A DNA stretch of 64,000 nt from NCBI GenBank assembly GCA_947623805.1, contig CANQHZ010000002.1, forward strand, positions 1-64,000. The letters run 5' to 3'. This document shows positions 1,494 through 58,143 of the stretch, in pieces (the first letter of the stretch is position 1; the number at the start of each line of letters is the position of its first letter). The position numbers and the translations under genes were made by a program. Source of the DNA: an uncultured Lachnospiraceae bacterium (GTDB taxonomy: Bacteria > Bacillota > Clostridia > Lachnospirales > Lachnospiraceae). Under the pieces are notes generated by a model, which was not told the DNA's origin, searched no databases, and was given only the letters and a program-made list of their open reading frames with translations.

Positions 1494-4349
1494 ATGGATA
1501 TAAACCAGGTAATGGGAGAGCTTGACGCGTTGTTTGACGATGAGGGAAAAACCGACCGTATAGGCGCTTTTTTGGAAGAACATATCGCGCTTGCCGCAGC
1601 CGAGCCGGACAACGAGGCGCTGCTTATGCTGTACAACGAGGCTATAGGCTTTTTCAGGGAGACGGGAGAATATGACAAAGCGGTATCAAACTGCTGCAAA
1701 GCGATAGAGCTTGCCGACAACATGAACCTGCAGGGGACACTGCCGTATGCGACTACACTCTTAAATGTAGCCAATGCGCATAGGGCTGCAGGGCTTTTGC
1801 GTGAGTCGCTTGAATATTATGACAGAGTGCTGCCGATATATAATGCCTGTCTGGAACCCGATAATATGTACTATGCGGGCCTATATAACAACATGAGCCT
1901 TTTGTATCAGGAGATGGCGGATTTTAAGTCGGCAAAGGAGTATCTTGAAAAAGCGCTTGACATAGTAATAAAGAAAAAGGATGCGCAGTTTGAAATAGCA
2001 GTCACGCACGCAAATCTTGCCAACACTTGCATAGAGCTCGGAGAAGATGATGAGGCAAAAGCGCGTGCCGAGGAAGCCATAAGGATTTTCGAGGAGATAG
2101 GCGTGGATGATGCCCACTACAGCGCTGCGCTCTCCGCGCTGGGCAGTCTGTATTACATGGACAAAAATTACAAGGCGGCCTGCGAAGTCATGGAAAAGAG
2201 CAGAGACTGCGTAGCAAAATATCTGGGAACCAATAACATACAGTATCAGCGGTTAAGCGAAAACATAGCGATAATCAAAGCAAAGCTTGAAGCGGAACAG
2301 CCACATCAGACAGAAAGTCCCGAAGAAAAGCAGCAGGAAGAAGTCTTGAAAGAAAATGAGCCCCGGCAAAATGCGTCAGACTTGGCAGAGCATGATACGC
2401 CGCAGGATGTAGTCGTTCTGGCTGAGAATGAGCAGGTACAGGATGAAGCAGTTTCGGAAGAAGGCAGCTCGTTAAACGAGACGGGTAATGCCGAAGAAGG
2501 TCAGCTTGTGCAGGAGGAAACAGTCTCGGCAGAAAATGAGACGCCGCAAGAGGAAGAAGCCGTTGCGGAAAGTCTATCTGCGCAGGAAGAAGCAGTTTCG
2601 GAAGAAAGCAGTCAGTCGCAGGATGAATCGGCCTTTATGGAATGTGAACCGTCGCAGGAGGAAGTCTCCCACGCAGAGGAGGTGCTACAGTCCCCTGAGC
2701 CTCAATCGGCTCCGTTGTTTGTACATGAGGATTTGACGCCTCAGATTACAGGTCTCGAGTTGTGCCGCAGATACTACGAGGAATACGGCAAACCTATGAT
2801 AGCCGAAAAATTTCCCGAATATGAGAAAAGGATAGCAGTAGGTCTTGTCGGAAAAGGCTCCGATTGTTTCGGCTTTGATGATAAGCAGTCCGCCGACCAT
2901 GATTTTGGACCGCGCTTTGTCATGTGGCTCACGAAAGAAACTTATGAACGCATAGGTGCGCAGCTCCAGCGCGCGTATGACGAGCTGCCGACTGAATATC
3001 TCGGTTATACGCGCAATGAAACCTTTCATGGCAAAGACCGCGCAGGCGTTATGATTATAGAGGATTTTTACAAAAATATTCTGGGTTACAATCTTTTTGA
3101 GGTACTTGCACAAAATGACAATAAAGAAAACTTAAGCACGATTAAATGCTGGCTTGCCATACATGACTATGCGCTTGCCGCCGCTGTAAACGGCGAAGTA
3201 TTCAGGGACGACGAAGGAATATTTACCGAATATAGAAACCGTCTGCTGAAATATTACCCCAAACCTGTTTGGTATAGGAAAATCGCGCAGGCGTGCGCCA
3301 TGTTCTCTCAAAGCGGGCAGTATAATCTCCCACGGATGCAGCGGCGCGGACAACTTGTATCGGCAGAGCTGGCAAAAGCCGAGTGTATGCGATATGCCAT
3401 GAAGCTCACATATTTGCTGAATATGAAATACTCGCCGCATGACAAATGGCTGTTTAAGGGATTGCCCCACAAGCCCGAGATGTGTGTCGAAAGCTTTGAC
3501 GGCAGCAAATTTGATGTAGCAAGTCTGGTTGAAAAAATGAGTACGTTGTCAGTGTCGCCAAAAGATGAGCAGGAGCTTGCCGTCACGGTAGAGGCACTTG
3601 CCGTAATATTTGCCAATGAGCTTGAAAGACTAAACATTATAGGTGAAAGCAACGTGTATCTCGATGCGAATACAGCCGAGCTTACGGCTAAAAGCGATGC
3701 GCTTTTGACGGCGGTAATGGCTGAAACGCCCGTGGTGTCGGCACTTTCGCTTTCGATAGCAAAGGCGGAGTTTGAGGCGTTTGACAAGGTTCAGAACGAA
3801 GGCGGCAGAGCAAGCTGTCAAAATGACTGGCCCACATTCAAGGTGATGCGCATGAGCCAGTATATGACTTGGAGCGAGGATATGCTTTTGCAGTATTTGT
3901 ATGAGTTCAAGACAAACTATGCAAACGGCAGAAACATGATAGAGGAGAAATATGCCCGCATGATGGAGTCAACGGCGCCGCTGGAATATGCGCGTTTTTC
4001 CGATTTACTTCCGCCTATTTCCGAGGAAAAGAAAAACATCATAGAAAATATTGTGCGGCTGCAGGTGCGTGATATGGAGGATTTTGCCAAACGTTACCCA
4101 AGGCTTGCGGGAAACGCAAGGATTATCCACACAAGGGACGACCTCCCGTATGACACGTCTTACGAAACATATTTGCGGGGCGAGCTTGGCACATATTCGG
4201 ACAAAATGCTTGACATGTACGGTCGATATATAGTATCGCACGCCCAATCAGGCAAAAATGTAGCGCAGGAAATTATGGGAAATACCATACGTTTTTATGG
4301 CTATAAGACTTTTGATGAGGCAGAGAAAAACATTGATGAACGCGGCTGA
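1494..4349 (+). CDS. TPR - DUF4037 - DUF4125 fusion protein
   Basis: About 951 residues. The start is placed at ATG 1494, after a GGGGGGAAC ribosome binding site, rather than at 1479, which has none. Residues about 15-265 are tetratricopeptide repeats (YNNMSLLYQEM, YATTLLNVANAH). Residues about 280-405 form an acidic, Q/E/S-rich low-complexity linker with repeated EEAVSEES-like units. Then comes a DUF4037 nucleotidyltransferase-like region (GKGSDCFGFDD, DHDFGPRF) and a C-terminal DUF4125 region (SQYMTWSEDMLLQYLYEF, IIHTRDDLPYDTSYETYLRGEL). DUF4037 and DUF4125 proteins are common in gut Clostridia, but I know of no proven function. The TPR part probably mediates protein contacts. The stop is 36 bases before trpS. 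Confidence 0.7.
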   Translation: MDINQVMGELDALFDDEGKTDRIGAFLEEHIALAAAEPDNEALLMLYNEAIGFFRETGEYDKAVSNCCKAIELADNMNLQGTLPYATTLLNVANAHRAAGLLRESLEYYDRVLPIYNACLEPDNMYYAGLYNNMSLLYQEMADFKSAKEYLEKALDIVIKKKDAQFEIAVTHANLANTCIELGEDDEAKARAEEAIRIFEEIGVDDAHYSAALSALGSLYYMDKNYKAACEVMEKSRDCVAKYLGTNNIQYQRLSENIAIIKAKLEAEQPHQTESPEEKQQEEVLKENEPRQNASDLAEHDTPQDVVVLAENEQVQDEAVSEEGSSLNETGNAEEGQLVQEETVSAENETPQEEEAVAESLSAQEEAVSEESSQSQDESAFMECEPSQEEVSHAEEVLQSPEPQSAPLFVHEDLTPQITGLELCRRYYEEYGKPMIAEKFPEYEKRIAVGLVGKGSDCFGFDDKQSADHDFGPRFVMWLTKETYERIGAQLQRAYDELPTEYLGYTRNETFHGKDRAGVMIIEDFYKNILGYNLFEVLAQNDNKENLSTIKCWLAIHDYALAAAVNGEVFRDDEGIFTEYRNRLLKYYPKPVWYRKIAQACAMFSQSGQYNLPRMQRRGQLVSAELAKAECMRYAMKLTYLLNMKYSPHDKWLFKGLPHKPEMCVESFDGSKFDVASLVEKMSTLSVSPKDEQELAVTVEALAVIFANELERLNIIGESNVYLDANTAELTAKSDALLTAVMAETPVVSALSLSIAKAEFEAFDKVQNEGGRASCQNDWPTFKVMRMSQYMTWSEDMLLQYLYEFKTNYANGRNMIEEKYARMMESTAPLEYARFSDLLPPISEEKKNIIENIVRLQVRDMEDFAKRYPRLAGNARIIHTRDDLPYDTSYETYLRGELGTYSDKMLDMYGRYIVSHAQSGKNVAQEIMGNTIRFYGYKTFDEAEKNIDERG

Positions 4350-51398: not shown

Positions 51399-51417
51399 AA
51401 TGTTCCTTCATTACAAA

Positions 51418-51444
51418 CCGCCAAGGGAAAATATCCCTTGGCGG
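51418..51444 (-). terminator. Hairpin after pilin copy 1
   Basis: Perfect 11-base stem CCGCCAAGGGA / TCCCTTGGCGG. The following T-run is poor (TTTGTAA), so read-through into the LTA-synthase-like gene is likely. The same CCGCCAAGG core ends the other two pilin cassettes. Confidence 0.7.
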
Positions 51445-51472
51445 TATTGTGACAAGTATTGCTATTCAATTA

Positions 51473-51919
51473 TTAGCGACCTAAATCTTCTTTTAATTTT
51501 CCACCGCCAGAACCGTTAGTAACTGTCATTTTGCCATCGGAACCAAAATTGATTGATGAGCCAGCATACGCAGCACTCTTTAATTTCATAGTGGAATAAC
51601 TAATTCCTGCATCATCTAAAGCTGTTTTAATAGAGCCAGAAGGAGAACCAATTATAGGATCGCCAGCCTTAGCAGCAATGGTGATAGCTCCTTGTACAAT
51701 AGTATGGTCGGGATCTGATGAATATATTTCGATTGCGGAAATAATGGCATCGATATTATCAAGATCTGCCGATTTTCTTGATTTATCAACGTACTTCAAA
51801 TACTGCGGTGCCAACACACCAATCAATACAGCCATAATTGCGATAACAATGATTAACTCTACAAGGGAGAAACCTTTGTTATCAAGTTTCTTTTCTTTTA
51901 GTTCATTTAATTTGTTCAT
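51473..51919 (-). CDS. Type IV prepilin, copy 1
   Basis: About 148 residues from ATG 51919 (GTG 51928 is an alternative only 3 bases from the AAAGGA site). A 16-residue leader ends in KG, and the mature protein begins FSLVELIIVIAIMAVLIGVLAPQYLKY, with Glu at position 5. The first ~50 residues match copies 2 and 3 almost perfectly, while the globular part is unrelated except for a final LGR shared with copy 3. It has the shared leader block upstream but no good -35 box. Confidence 0.9.
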   Translation of the reverse strand: MNKLNELKEKKLDNKGFSLVELIIVIAIMAVLIGVLAPQYLKYVDKSRKSADLDNIDAIISAIEIYSSDPDHTIVQGAITIAAKAGDPIIGSPSGSIKTALDDAGISYSTMKLKSAAYAGSSINFGSDGKMTVTNGSGGGKLKEDLGR

Positions 51920-52247
51920 TGGATTCACATATCCTTTCCATTGTTAATTTTTTTGACTAAGTAATTACCGCATCCAAAGATACAGCACACCCTTAATCAT
52001 AATATTGGTTGACAGTTACACTAAAACCTTATCCACCCTGCCTCATGAACAGCACCCTCCAGCCATGCTGCATATACATACATCACTTCCCATCCTCCGG
52101 CAAATGCCCTCATGACTGTACTCAGCGGACAACTCATATGTACCAGCCGCGCCGCATATTTCGTAAAATATGCCATATAAGACAACAAACCATCCCGCCG
52201 CAGCCGCTTATTTTTTATACATATATTATACTTAAGGGGCAATTAAA
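51776..52247 (-). repeat. Shared pilin promoter/leader/N-terminus block, copy 1
   Basis: About 470 bases that recur at 55117-55589 (opposite orientation) and 60689-61160 (same orientation); by eye about 12 differences in 330 leader bases against copy 2. It runs from TTAAnnGCCCCTTAAGTATAAT through the leader into the first 51 pilin codons. The -35 position here reads AAACGA. It fills most of the 534-base gap between pilin 1 and the recombinase gene. Confidence 0.92.
52021..52188 (-). CDS. Possible 55-residue leader ORF in pilin block 1
   Basis: TTG-started frame LLSYMAYFTKYAARLVHM... ending at TAG about 90 bases before the pilin gene. Copy 2 keeps the frame with mostly third-position changes; copy 3 has a one-base deletion. 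It could instead be a structured untranslated leader. Confidence 0.25.
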   Translation of the reverse strand: MLSYMAYFTKYAARLVHMSCPLSTVMRAFAGGWEVMYVYAAWLEGAVHEAGWIRF

Positions 52248-52453: not shown

Positions 52454-53485
52454 ATGGCATTATTTCCATGCCCCGAATGTGGGAAATCTATTTCTGACAA
52501 GGCTATTTTGTGTCCGTCATGCGGTTATCCGGTGCGCTTGACAGAAACACCTATGGCTGACAGGTTGTTTCCCGGTTTTGCAGAGTTGTGCTTTACTTTG
52601 CAGTCAAACCGCCGTTGTACAGCATCTGCCAAATATATGAATATTACTTTTGCCGAGTTGTATGAGCAATACTTTGAAAGCAAGTATACAAATTCCAAAA
52701 GAAAACTGTCAGCCTCGGCAGGGTATTCCGCTCATGCAGCATTTAAAAACTGTCAAAAACTTCACGAAATGAGATTTGCAGATTTAAGAAAAAATGATTT
52801 GCAGGAAATCATTGACACATGTCCTTTGAAACATTCAAGCCTCGAACTGATTGTTTCTCTTTTCAGAGGAATGTACGCCTATGCCATTCAAAATGATATT
52901 GTAGAAAAAGATTACTCGCGGTTCGTCCGCATAAACATTCCCGACGATGACGAAAACGGCGTGCCTTTTTCATCAAGAGCGCTGGAAATTCTTTGGAAAA
53001 ATCGCGACAAAGAAATTGTCAAAATTATTCTTTTGATGATATATACAGGTTTTCGCATTTCTGCCTATCGGACAATACAATATAATGAAACGGAACAATA
53101 TTTTAAAGGAGGCGTGAAAACTGCCGTAAGCAAAAACAGAATTGTCCCGCTACATCCCGCAGTACAAGCTTTTGCAAAAGACTTCGCCGCAAAATATTTA
53201 TCGGGAAATGAAATTTTTGCAGTAAATAAATTCCGTAAAAACTTTTATAAAACGCTTAACTCTCTCGGATTAGCGACATCAAATTTAGGCACAAAGCACA
53301 CGCCGCATGACTGCCGGCACACATTTTCGTGGCTTTGCGACAAATATGGAGTAGACGACCTTTCCAAACGAATGTTGATGGGACATTCCCTTGGAAAAGA
53401 CATCGAAAAGTCGGTATACGGTCATAGAACTTTCGATGAATTGAAAACGGAAATCAACAAAATCAAATCGCCTGATTTGGTATAA
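52454..53485 (+). CDS. Tyrosine recombinase with N-terminal zinc ribbon
   Basis: 343 residues. Residues 5-25 form a zinc ribbon (CPECGKSISDKAILCPSCG). A SAM-like core-binding region (~55-155) precedes the catalytic domain with all expected residues: Arg in YTGFRISAYR, Lys in VSKNRIVPLH, HDCRH, then GHSLGKDIEKSVYGH with the nucleophilic Tyr. RBS AAGGAGG. It is encoded between two inverted pilin blocks, which makes DNA inversion of the pilin promoter region a natural hypothesis. No phage genes or tRNA attachment site are nearby. Confidence 0.88.
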   Translation: MALFPCPECGKSISDKAILCPSCGYPVRLTETPMADRLFPGFAELCFTLQSNRRCTASAKYMNITFAELYEQYFESKYTNSKRKLSASAGYSAHAAFKNCQKLHEMRFADLRKNDLQEIIDTCPLKHSSLELIVSLFRGMYAYAIQNDIVEKDYSRFVRINIPDDDENGVPFSSRALEILWKNRDKEIVKIILLMIYTGFRISAYRTIQYNETEQYFKGGVKTAVSKNRIVPLHPAVQAFAKDFAAKYLSGNEIFAVNKFRKNFYKTLNSLGLATSNLGTKHTPHDCRHTFSWLCDKYGVDDLSKRMLMGHSLGKDIEKSVYGHRTFDELKTEINKIKSPDLV

Positions 53486-53539: not shown

Positions 53540-53568
53540 TTGACTTCAGAACAATAGTTTGGTAAAAT
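53540..53568 (+). promoter_or_regulatory. Sigma-A promoter of the rpn gene
   Basis: TTGACT at 53540-53545, 17-base spacer, TAAAAT at 53563-53568; 82 bases upstream of the start codon. Confidence 0.7.
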
Positions 53569-53649: not shown

Positions 53650-54663
53650 ATGGGCGCAAAAGATATTACTGAGAAAATATTGGCTGATTATAATGACGTG
53701 TTTGCTGACATTATAAATGGTGTATTGTTTGACGGTGAACAAATCGTATCCGAAAATGCGCTGGAAAACGTCAAGGATAAAAGCCAGTACAAATTTAACA
53801 GCAAAATCCATGAACAAGAACGCGACGTATCCAAAAGCTGGATTCCATCTGGGGTTTGTTTCGCGCTCTACGGTTTTGAACATGAAACAGAGGCAGAACC
53901 ATATATGCCAATGCGAATTATTGGATATGACGGCGCGTCATATCGAGGGCAGTTGCTAAGCCACAATAAGGGCAAGATAAAATATCCGGTTGTTACCATT
54001 GTACTGTATTTCGGCACAAAACACTGGAATCAGCCGCGTAGCCTGCATGAATGTCTGACAATTCCTGAAAGGTTGAAACCATATGTAAATGACTATAAAA
54101 TTAATCTCGTGGAAGTCGCTTTTTTAGACGATAAGCTTGATAATTTCCATAGTGATTTCCGCATTATTGCCGAATATTTTGTCAACAAGCGCAAAGGCTC
54201 GGACTATATTCCGAACGCACAAACGATTAAACACATAGATGAATTTTTGAAATTGCTGCAGGCATTGACTGGCGATAAGAGATATTATGAAGTTTTGGAA
54301 TCATTGCAGGAAACAGAAAAGCGGGAGGGGATTAAAATGTGTGAGATTTTGGATAAAATTGAAAATAGGGGGATTGCTATTGGGGAAGAACGCGGGGAAA
54401 AGCGCGGCATTGTTATCGGTGAAAAGCGTGGTATTGCTATTGGGGAAAAGCGCGGCATTGCCATAGGTAAAGAACATGGAATCGCTATCGGGGAAAAACG
54501 CGGAATTGCTATTGGGGAAAAACATGGTCGCAACGAAATCAATAGACTCGTCGCTATTTTGTTGGAGGAGAATCGGATAGACGACTTAAAGCGGGCAGTG
54601 CATGATACAGAATATCAGCAGCAACTCATGATTGAGTATGGAATTTGCAAAGATTATGAGTAA
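53650..54663 (+). CDS. rpn: Rpn family recombination-promoting nuclease / transposase-like protein
   Basis: 337 residues of the clostridial Rpn type (PD-(D/E)XK nuclease-like): AKDITEKILADYNDVFADI, IGYDGASYRGQLL, FRIIAEYFVNKRKGSDYIP. From residue 230 a C-terminal tail carries MCEILDKIENRG, then about six GIAIGEKR-type octapeptides and a helical end. A strong Shine-Dalgarno (GGGAGGGG) and ATG lie inside the gene in front of MCEIL. Rpn proteins have been described as toxic nucleases blocked by a short protein made from an internal start; the same layout is visible here. The C-terminal unit is duplicated just downstream. Confidence 0.88.
   Translation: MGAKDITEKILADYNDVFADIINGVLFDGEQIVSENALENVKDKSQYKFNSKIHEQERDVSKSWIPSGVCFALYGFEHETEAEPYMPMRIIGYDGASYRGQLLSHNKGKIKYPVVTIVLYFGTKHWNQPRSLHECLTIPERLKPYVNDYKINLVEVAFLDDKLDNFHSDFRIIAEYFVNKRKGSDYIPNAQTIKHIDEFLKLLQALTGDKRYYEVLESLQETEKREGIKMCEILDKIENRGIAIGEERGEKRGIVIGEKRGIAIGEKRGIAIGKEHGIAIGEKRGIAIGEKHGRNEINRLVAILLEENRIDDLKRAVHDTEYQQQLMIEYGICKDYE
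54337..54663 (+). CDS. Predicted intragenic short Rpn product (antitoxin-like)
   Basis: 108 residues in frame with rpn, from ATG 54337 with GGGAGGGG six bases upstream, a better site than that of the full gene. It contains only the octapeptide-repeat tail. The gene-within-gene arrangement is known for Rpn antitoxins; expression here is inferred. Confidence 0.55.
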   Translation: MCEILDKIENRGIAIGEERGEKRGIVIGEKRGIAIGEKRGIAIGKEHGIAIGEKRGIAIGEKHGRNEINRLVAILLEENRIDDLKRAVHDTEYQQQLMIEYGICKDYE

Positions 54664-54733
54664 TCTATCACTAACTGTATTTTAAGATTTTTGTTAATCA
54701 TTGCAGGAAACAGAAAAGCGGGAGGGGATTAAA

Positions 54734-54988
54734 ATGTGTGAGATTTTGGATAAAATTGAAAATAGGGGGATTGCTATCGGGGAAAAACGTGGGGAAAAAC
54801 GTGGCATTGTCATCGGTGAAAAACGCGGAATTGCTATTGGTGAAGAACGTGGTCGCAACGAAGCCAACAGCCTCGTCGCTATTTTGTTGGAGGAGAATCG
54901 GATAGATGACTTAAAGCGAGCAGTGCATGACGAGGAATATCAACAGCAGCTTATGATTGAGTATGGAATTTGTGAAGATTGCGAATAA
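54734..54988 (+). CDS. Stand-alone duplicate of the Rpn C-terminal unit
   Basis: 84 residues from ATG 54734, again behind GGGAGGGG. The DNA from CATTGCAGGAAACAG (about 54699) repeats that of the rpn gene from about 54302. The protein has only three octapeptide units (GIVIGEKR, GIAIGEER and a longer first one) against six in rpn, and the end LMIEYGICEDCE. The nuclease domain is missing. It may be a fragment left by tandem duplication, or a functional extra antitoxin since its start signals are intact. Confidence 0.6.
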   Translation: MCEILDKIENRGIAIGEKRGEKRGIVIGEKRGIAIGEERGRNEANSLVAILLEENRIDDLKRAVHDEEYQQQLMIEYGICEDCE

Positions 54989-55110: not shown

Positions 55111-55139
55111 TTGCATTTTAACCGCCCCTTAAGTATAAT
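55111..55139 (+). promoter_or_regulatory. Sigma-A promoter of pilin copy 2
   Basis: TTGCAT at 55111-55116, exact 17-base spacer, TATAAT at 55134-55139. The -10 and most of the spacer belong to the shared block; the -35 is outside it. The corresponding -35 positions are AAACGA in copy 1 and TTCTCA in copy 3. Confidence 0.8.
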
Positions 55140-55589
55140 ATATGTATAAAAAATAAGCGGCTGCGGCGGGAGGATTTGTTGTCTTATGTGGCATATTTTA
55201 CGAAATATGCAGCGCGGCTGGTACATATGAGTTGTCCGCTGAGTACAGTCATGAGGGCATTCGCCGGAGGATGGGAAGTGATGTATGTATATGCAGCATG
55301 GCTGAAGGGTGCTGTTCATGAGGCAGGGTGGATAAGATTTTAGTGTAACTGTCAACCAAATATTATGATTAAGGGTATGCTGTATCTTTGGATGCGGCAA
55401 TTACTTAGTCAAAAAAATTAACAATGGAAAGGACATGTGAATCCAATGAACAAATTAAATGAACTAAAAGAAAAGAAACTTGATAACAAAGGTTTCTCCC
55501 TTGTGGAGTTGATTATTGTTATCGCTATTATGGCTGTATTGATTGGTGTGTTGGCACCGCAGTATTTGAAGTATGTTGAGAAGTCAAGA
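55117..55589 (+). repeat. Shared pilin promoter/leader/N-terminus block, copy 2
   Basis: Same block as 51776-52247, in the opposite orientation. Its leader includes a perfect hairpin GCATATTT-TACG-AAATATGC at 55191-55210 that is conserved in all copies. The 448-base stretch 54989-55436 otherwise holds only AT-rich sequence. Confidence 0.92.
55176..55343 (+). CDS. Possible 55-residue leader ORF in pilin block 2
   Basis: TTG start five to eight bases after GGGAGG; frame LLSYVAYFTKYAARLVHM... to TAG. It differs from copy 1 by two residue changes and three silent changes. Coding status is uncertain. Confidence 0.3.
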   Translation: MLSYVAYFTKYAARLVHMSCPLSTVMRAFAGGWEVMYVYAAWLKGAVHEAGWIRF

Positions 55590-55907
55590 GTAGCCAGTGA
55601 TAGGGATAATATAACAGCAATTAAAGATGCTATACAAGTATATGGTGCTGACCCTGATGCAGATGCTTCTAAGCCATTGGCAAATGGAGACACTGTAGTT
55701 CTTACACGAGACGGTACTGGTGCTAGTATTTCTGGTGATGGTGTAAAAGAGGCATTAAAAGCTGCTGGTTTACCTGACGACGCAACTAAATTACCCAAAC
55801 TTCAAAATCAACAGAAGAAAAAGAAAGTAATAATAACAGTTACTATTAATTCTACTACAAAAAATGTGTCAGTTACAGATGATTTTGACACACCTGACAC
55901 TCCCTAA
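55446..55907 (+). CDS. Type IV prepilin, copy 2
   Basis: About 153 residues (ATG 55446; GTG 55437 alternative). Prepilin leader ending KG, mature start FSLVELIIVIAIMAVL, nearly identical to copies 1 and 3 for ~50 residues. The variable part is different (VYGADPDADASKPLANG) and ends in a basic stretch and TDDFDTPDTP, lacking the LGR end of the other copies. It is the only copy with a consensus promoter, so probably the expressed one in this genome configuration. Confidence 0.9.
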   Translation: MNKLNELKEKKLDNKGFSLVELIIVIAIMAVLIGVLAPQYLKYVEKSRVASDRDNITAIKDAIQVYGADPDADASKPLANGDTVVLTRDGTGASISGDGVKEALKAAGLPDDATKLPKLQNQQKKKKVIITVTINSTTKNVSVTDDFDTPDTP

Positions 55908-56036
55908 CATATAGGATTTGCTTTATTATTGATTAGTTTTGTTTATCAATACTCATATTTACTAGTAAATACTATCTTGCTAAGCAATGTTAAAAGCTGA
56001 AAAGTAGATTATAAAAATTTTGGTAGCTCTACAAGA

Positions 56037-56068
56037 CCGTCAAGGAACTCTTTCCCTTGGCGGTTTTT
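56037..56068 (+). terminator. Intrinsic terminator after pilin copy 2
   Basis: CCGTCAAGG ... CCTTGGCGG stem (one G-T pair) followed by TTTTT. It shares the CCGCCAAGG core with the hairpins after copies 1 and 3. Confidence 0.85.
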
Positions 56069-56445: not shown

Positions 56446-58143
56446 ATGGCAAAAAAAGTAAAACTTCCCGTAGGAATTGAGGACTTTGAAGAAATGCGCA
56501 CCATGGGATATTATTATGTTGATAAAACCAAAATAATCCTTGACCTTATAGACAATTTAGGGAAAGTAAACCTCTTTACCCGTCCAAGGCGATTTGGGAA
56601 AACCTTAAATATGAGCATGCTCAAATTTTTCTTTGAAATCGGCAACGACGGCTCACTCTTTGACGGACTGGAAATTTCCAATGAAAAAGAACTCTGCAGC
56701 GAATATATGGGGAAATTTCCGGTTATTTCAATCAGCCTGAAAAATGTAGAAGGCGCTTCCTTTGATAAGGCGAAAAACAGGCTTCGAACCGTTATAGGAA
56801 CGGAGGCAATCAGATTTTCATTCCTTTCAGACTGTAATAACCTGACAGAAACCGAACGCCAACAATATGCTAAGCTGATTGAATTGAATGACAGCGGCGA
56901 ATTTGCGATGTCGGATGATATGCTGGAAAACAGTCTGTTTCTTCTGTCCGTTTTTTTGCAAAAACATTACGGACTAAAAACAATCCTGCTGATTGATGAA
57001 TACGATGTCCCACTTGATAAGGCATACCAGTCAGGATACTATGATGTCATGGTTCAACTGCTTAGGTCGCTGTTTGGACAGGTGCTCAAGACAAACAGCA
57101 GCTTATATTTTGCGGTGCTTATAGGCTGCCTTAGAATTTCAAAGGAAAGCATCTTTACCGGACTTAACAATTTTAAAATATATACGGTAAAGGATGTTCA
57201 GTACAATGAATATTTCGGTTTTACGAATGACGAAGTCAGGAAAATGCTTGCATACTACGGATTTATGGAAAAATATGAGGTCATGAAAGAATGGTATGAC
57301 GGCTATTGTTTTGGCAGTTTGGAGGTTTACTGTCCATGGGATGTGGTAAACTATTGCCATGCATTGAAGATGAATCCGGCGGAAATCCCGCAGAACTACT
57401 GGGTAAATACAAGCAGTAATGATATTATCAGAAATCTAATAAACAAATCTGATGCGTCAACAAAAGATGAGATTGAATCGCTGGTAAACGGTGGAAGCAT
57501 AAAAAAGGAAATTCATCAGGAACTGACCTACAGAGATTTGGATTCTGATATTGACAACCTTTGGAGCCTGCTCTTTACTACTGGATATCTGACGCAGAAT
57601 GGGAATGACGAAGATGGCGTGTCAAAGCTTGTCATTCCAAACAAGGAAATTCTCTGGATATATGTCCGGCAAATCCGCGGATGGTTTCAAGACGAAACCA
57701 AAAAAGACCCTAATAAATTAAACGATTTTCGCAGGGCATTCGAGGCAAATGACACGGTCGCAATAGAGAAAATTTTTACATCATATCTGCGAAAAACCAT
57801 CAGCATACGAGACACAAATGTCAGGCAGGAAATGAAAGAGAATTTTTATCACGGAGTATTGTTGGGGTTATTTGCAGGTATGGAGGGCTGGAATGTCAAG
57901 TCAAACGCAGAAGCCGGCGACGGCTACAGTGATATCAGCATAGAGATTGCAGATAAGGAAATCGGTATAATAATCGAATTAAAATACGCCGAGAATGCGA
58001 CGCTGGAGAACGGCTGCAAAGAAGCATTGAGACAAATTCATGACAAAAGATATGAGGAGATACTGGCTGACAATGGAATGAACATCATATACAAGTACGG
58101 CATCGCCTGCTACAAAAAACGCTGCAAGGTAATATCGGAATAA
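56446..58143 (+). CDS. AAA-ATPase-like / PD-(D/E)XK nuclease protein (DUF1703), copy 1
   Basis: 565 residues. The N-terminal AAA-like domain begins LPVGIEDFEEMRTMGYYYVDKT and has a Walker A-type RPRRFGKTLNMS and Walker B ILLIDEYDVPLDKA. The C-terminal nuclease-like domain has D...E-x-K: GYSDISIEI ... IIIELKYA. This family is highly expanded in gut Firmicutes and Bacteroidetes; its role is not established, with defence or mobile-element links suggested. An inverted paralogue follows at 58408. Confidence 0.85.
   Translation: MAKKVKLPVGIEDFEEMRTMGYYYVDKTKIILDLIDNLGKVNLFTRPRRFGKTLNMSMLKFFFEIGNDGSLFDGLEISNEKELCSEYMGKFPVISISLKNVEGASFDKAKNRLRTVIGTEAIRFSFLSDCNNLTETERQQYAKLIELNDSGEFAMSDDMLENSLFLLSVFLQKHYGLKTILLIDEYDVPLDKAYQSGYYDVMVQLLRSLFGQVLKTNSSLYFAVLIGCLRISKESIFTGLNNFKIYTVKDVQYNEYFGFTNDEVRKMLAYYGFMEKYEVMKEWYDGYCFGSLEVYCPWDVVNYCHALKMNPAEIPQNYWVNTSSNDIIRNLINKSDASTKDEIESLVNGGSIKKEIHQELTYRDLDSDIDNLWSLLFTTGYLTQNGNDEDGVSKLVIPNKEILWIYVRQIRGWFQDETKKDPNKLNDFRRAFEANDTVAIEKIFTSYLRKTISIRDTNVRQEMKENFYHGVLLGLFAGMEGWNVKSNAEAGDGYSDISIEIADKEIGIIIELKYAENATLENGCKEALRQIHDKRYEEILADNGMNIIYKYGIACYKKRCKVISE

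Follow-up and report, generated by a model that had tools for sequence, protein, structure and literature searches.

In Escherichia coli, a short protein, RpnS, is translated inside the rpn gene and binds, inhibits and neutralises RpnL (Zhong et al. 2023, PMC10327210). The rpnE and rpnC genes can in addition have stand-alone rpnS copies downstream (rpnE/ypaA, the latter known as rpnES, and rpnC/rpnCS), of which the RpnES protein is produced, and such tail copies can be lost or become fused to the nuclease (PMC10327210). One extra repeat in RpnCS abolishes the neutralisation of RpnC, indicating that repeat number sets antitoxin specificity, a rule demonstrated for a single E. coli protein (PMC10327210). 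The same study raised the question of how Rpn tails change their repeat number without killing the cell (PMC10327210).

The locus described here lies in a stretch of 64,000 nucleotides from an uncultured gut Lachnospiraceae bacterium (the window), in which an rpn gene is followed by a second, tail-only gene (Table 1). This arrangement has been described before in E. coli (rpnE/ypaA and rpnC), and the locus is a further case of it. New in the present comparison is the lack of match, as read from the sequences, between the repeat numbers of the neighbouring copies.

Results

Table 1. Features of the rpn locus, with positions in the window
Feature	Position	Strand	Description and basis
Promoter-like site	53540..53568	+	TTGACT-17-TAAAAT with TG before the -10, upstream of rpn; consensus scan, 10/12 matches
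rpn (RpnL)	53650..54663	+	PF04754/Transposase_31 nuclease domain, then repeat-rich tail; 337 aa
Internal Shine-Dalgarno	54323..54330	+	GGGAGGGG; sequence, internal Shine-Dalgarno conserved in the genus
Intragenic rpnS	54337..54663	+	Internal ATG; tail of 108 aa, 13 four-residue repeats; translation
Repeat array of the intragenic tail	54393..54527	+	12-/24-nt units; Tandem Repeats Finder
Duplicated leader with Shine-Dalgarno (54720-54727)	54696..54733	+	From 54697 base-for-base identical to the leader inside rpn
Stand-alone rpnS	54734..54988	+	Tail-only ORF of 84 aa, 7 four-residue repeats; translation, coding constraint

Judged by its sequence, the upstream gene belongs to the Rpn nucleases (COG5464, PF04754), as the preliminary description had proposed. 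The N-terminal Transposase_31/YhgA-like domain (Pfam, residues 76-204) scored 35.9 bits (E 7.6e-9), above the curated PF04754 cutoff of 21 bits. The PD-(D/E)XK-type active-site residues R58, D59 and E77 were invariant among 36 relatives, and position 79 was E or Q in the same set (E in the window protein). The AF2 model of RpnL had a mean pLDDT of 75, with a usable nuclease domain and a repeat region of low confidence, and the fold comparison was weak (top match XisH, E 0.058). No defence family was detected by a PADLOC scan, and no relative of the gene was found on viral contigs. The promoter-like site upstream of rpn has to be read against the overall count of such sites, which did not exceed that in shuffled sequence (9 versus an expected 7.2). 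Two further promoter-like sites (54332-54359 and 54729-54756) were considered as tail promoters and rejected, because promoters positioned beyond the start codons cannot serve tails that begin at those ATGs.

The sequence GGGAGGGG-ATTAAA-ATG is present in two places: within rpn (54323-54339) and in the tail-only copy (54720-54736). The internal start, suspected before from this signal, has a counterpart throughout the genus: of 53 candidate rpn ORFs gathered, the tail junction could be recognised in 49, and each of these carried a start codon at it (ATG in 33, GTG in 16). Since junctions were located by searching for M or V, the informative part of this count is the identity of the codon. Every one of the 16 junction valines was encoded by GTG, compared to 205 of the 838 valine codons elsewhere in the same genes, and ATG and GTG had switched at this position between sister rpn genes. 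From the codons it is clear that start function, rather than the amino acid, is conserved at the junction, and it is very likely that the internal start of rpn is used for translation; a formal probability for the conservation would be unreliable because the genes are related. The strength of the internal Shine-Dalgarno averaged 6.57 in the genus, versus 4.92 under a synonymous null, and the per-gene tests were mostly non-significant singly (window rpn, p = 0.20). Informative on the internal start are the mean Shine-Dalgarno strength and the start codons only, not the single-gene tests. A short inhibitory protein made from such a start, named earlier as a known property of Rpn genes, corresponds to E. 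coli RpnS (PMC10327210).

The tail is repeated downstream without the nuclease domain and with the same ribosome binding site and ATG, as had been noted, and the ATG of the copy lies 70 nt past the rpn stop. Homology between the copies begins at about 54299 and 54696, 37-38 nt 5' of each ATG, and reaches both stop codons; an in-frame TAA stands immediately 5' of the duplicated leader. Two ungapped repeat blocks join the copies, far beyond chance (174 nt at 89%, 54282/54679; 195 nt at 86%, 54470/54795). Four-residue repeats of the IAIG/EKRG type stand near the start of each tail, 13 in the 108-aa rpn tail versus 7 in the 84-aa stand-alone protein. No terminator-like site was found between the two genes in a scan. 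The window rpn tail and the stand-alone copy differed by a pS of 0.42 and a pN of 0.064 (pN/pS about 0.15), and the stand-alone copies of the window and of a second species (G019, below) by 0.156 and 0.037 (pN/pS 0.24, from only 8 changes). These low ratios indicate that both copies have stayed protein-coding and that the reading frame of the stand-alone rpnS has been kept since the duplication, and in all likelihood the gene yields a translated RpnS-like protein. Three helices were predicted towards the end of the AF2 tail model (residues 34-53, 57-65 and 67-76; mean pLDDT 64). A Foldseek search with this model, given its confidence, gave no match to the three-helix bundle of the RpnAS structure 7TH0, sequence searches gave no tail match to RpnAS, and neither tail had a Pfam match to DUF4351 (PF14261).

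The preliminary description had left room for the duplicate being unique to this assembly. The same order of rpn and tail-only gene is present in another species of the genus (G019, CANQSB010000001.1), with 10 versus 8 repeats. In the 138-nt C-terminal part, the rpn tails of the two species differ at 7 sites and their stand-alone copies at 8, compared to 18 (window) and 14 (G019) differences between the two copies within a genome; both cross comparisons of an rpn tail with the stand-alone copy of the other species gave 15. As the differences between species are fewer than those within a genome, the duplication is, on this count, older than the split of the two species. The C-terminal tail parts at the window locus follow the species tree, and no recent tail swap was seen there. 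Unlike the C-terminal part, in which the paralogues differ at 14-18 of 138 sites, the 81 nt that cover leader and start show no difference (0/81) in any of the six pairs among the four copies. This indicates either homogenisation or strong constraint, and the data fit both. Gene conversion by the stand-alone copy was considered as the source of a 36-nt block in the window rpn tail and set aside, as loss in the G019 rpn, or shared ancestry, can also explain why this block matches the stand-alone copy of G019.

A search for rpn genes with a tail-only copy downstream, proposed in the preliminary description, returned two independent events among the 49 genus rpn genes, and E. coli as well. Copies of the same anatomy were found next to an rpn of a different subfamily (G014/L020) and as ypaA in E. 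coli K-12. In all three independent duplications (window locus, G014/L020 and E. coli rpnE) the homology to the parent starts just 5' of the Shine-Dalgarno, which suggests that the unit copied and retained was the inner gene plus its ribosome binding site. Relatives at 70-80% identity (G003, G007, G032) had no tail-only copy in the downstream sequence examined. Short tail ORFs in the wider family were mostly remnants of nuclease genes, truncated or decayed, and not clean tail-only genes. An orphan tail-only ORF of 91 aa with an MC junction was seen behind a MarR-like gene, with no rpn nearby (L140:2883-3158). Tail pieces stood in succession at two places (L134, G067:C204, about 2759-3846 on the minus strand, and L135:3-805), which could be tail arrays or decayed nuclease genes. 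Two full-length rpn genes occurred in tandem or near each other in G013 and G026 (L011:1501-3306; L018/L033, G026:C15), with tails unequal in repeat number. The same repeat-plus-helix tail was also present on several other nuclease-like N-terminal domains in the genus (L091, L092, L094, L095, L099-L103), and tails seem to be shared between nuclease families.

In E. coli, the repeat numbers of rpnE and ypaA were never equal in 11 of 11 sampled two-copy loci (7 distinct combinations). Because variable repeat numbers make chance equality rare, this shows, at the level of sequence, absence of matching and not avoidance of matching. Proximal tail ends were found in 3099 E. coli genomes and distal ends in 5364 of 5426; about 42% had the distal end only, a figure to be read with the reservation that diverged proximal ends may escape the search. 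Likewise, when the ranking was sampled evenly, 16 of the 40 loci had the tail at a single place, and in the three single-copy loci read the nuclease was joined to the distal tail end (3/3). A distal tail on the nuclease is the outcome expected of a deletion between the leaders; a single-tail ancestor also fits.

The rpn pair, together with a tyrosine-recombinase-like gene (52454-53485), is flanked by long inverted repeats (51415-52247 and 55117-56066; 285 nt at 88% and 243 nt at 96%). Within the repeats lie the 5' parts of two divergent prepilin genes (51473-51928 on the minus strand, 55437-55907 on the plus strand) whose N-termini are identical; the arrangement might be an invertible or shuffling pilin locus. 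Near the locus, 56446-58143 encodes an AAA-ATPase_like plus PDDEXK_9 protein.

Discussion

We consider it somewhat probable that the locus consists of a two-product rpn, coding for RpnL and an internally started RpnS, followed by a stand-alone duplicate of rpnS that doubles as a spare tail. Both tail proteins would be made from one transcript and the intragenic RpnS would keep RpnL in check. The stand-alone protein would not be fully cognate to the adjacent RpnL and would retain an antitoxin for another tail type; its gene would at the same time be a tail in reserve. By crossing over within the identical leader, the nuclease would acquire the new tail and, as the matching inhibitor is encoded inside that tail, would gain this inhibitor automatically. 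Taken by itself, the spare-tail role is close to an even call, falling slightly short of it, and may overlap with use as a second antitoxin. The preliminary description had offered two options, an independent second antitoxin and a trace of recombination that diversifies tails, and elements of both are seen. In line with the former, the copy is coding and has its own ribosome binding site, while the repeat mismatch with the adjacent rpn speaks against full cognacy if RpnC is taken as the model (PMC10327210). Tail exchange, the latter option, is consistent with the identical leader and with the single-copy loci of E. coli.

The copy could instead simply be a further antitoxin against the adjacent RpnL that increases the amount of inhibitor, with repeat number irrelevant in this family. 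Its own ribosome binding site, a probable shared transcript and the coding constraint agree with this, as does the binding and inhibition of RpnL by RpnS in E. coli (PMC10327210), but the repeats are unequal in both species (13 vs 7, 10 vs 8) and in all 11 sampled E. coli pairs, and a change of one repeat abolished RpnC neutralisation (PMC10327210), and we regard it as rather unlikely. That the copy is functionless debris of a tandem rpn duplication is far less plausible: startless tail fragments exist (e.g. a remnant that follows rpn in L002, and tail fragments in G067), whereas here pN/pS is about 0.15-0.24, the frame is intact in two species and the duplicated segment starts just before the Shine-Dalgarno rather than somewhere arbitrary within the nuclease domain. 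An assembly artefact or collapsed tandem array might be thought of in a draft of 229 contigs with a repeat-rich tail, but the same junction recurs in an independent assembly of another species and the copies are 10-13% apart in the C-terminal part, making it hardly credible.

If a stand-alone rpnS does double as a spare tail, the gene-within-gene antitoxin together with the spare would solve the change of tail in one recombination step. It would be a bolder and doubtful step to see stand-alone rpnS copies as a general spare-tail system, in which leaders recombine, specificity and inhibitor change in one step and the mismatch is the selected state. The spare-tail idea is open to direct testing, as the repeat numbers of neighbouring copies disagree in two distant phyla.

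The closest described systems, E. coli rpnE/ypaA and rpnC/rpnCS, likewise have a PF04754-type nuclease gene with an internal start for a repeat-containing tail protein, and a stand-alone tail copy with its own ribosome binding site and start and with variable repeat numbers. The present locus differs in its host, a Lachnospiraceae bacterium, and in its IAIG/EKRG-type repeats, and also in the length of the duplicated leader (37-38 nt, 14 in E. coli) and in the gap (70 nt, 12 in E. coli). In CDI systems, orphan cdiA-CT/cdiI modules lie downstream and can be brought into the main gene by recombination, inhibitor included. The likeness is an analogy only, in that downstream spare C-terminal modules bring their own inhibitor; there is no homology, and CDI toxins are delivered and have separate immunity genes, whereas in rpn the tail itself would be the inhibitor.
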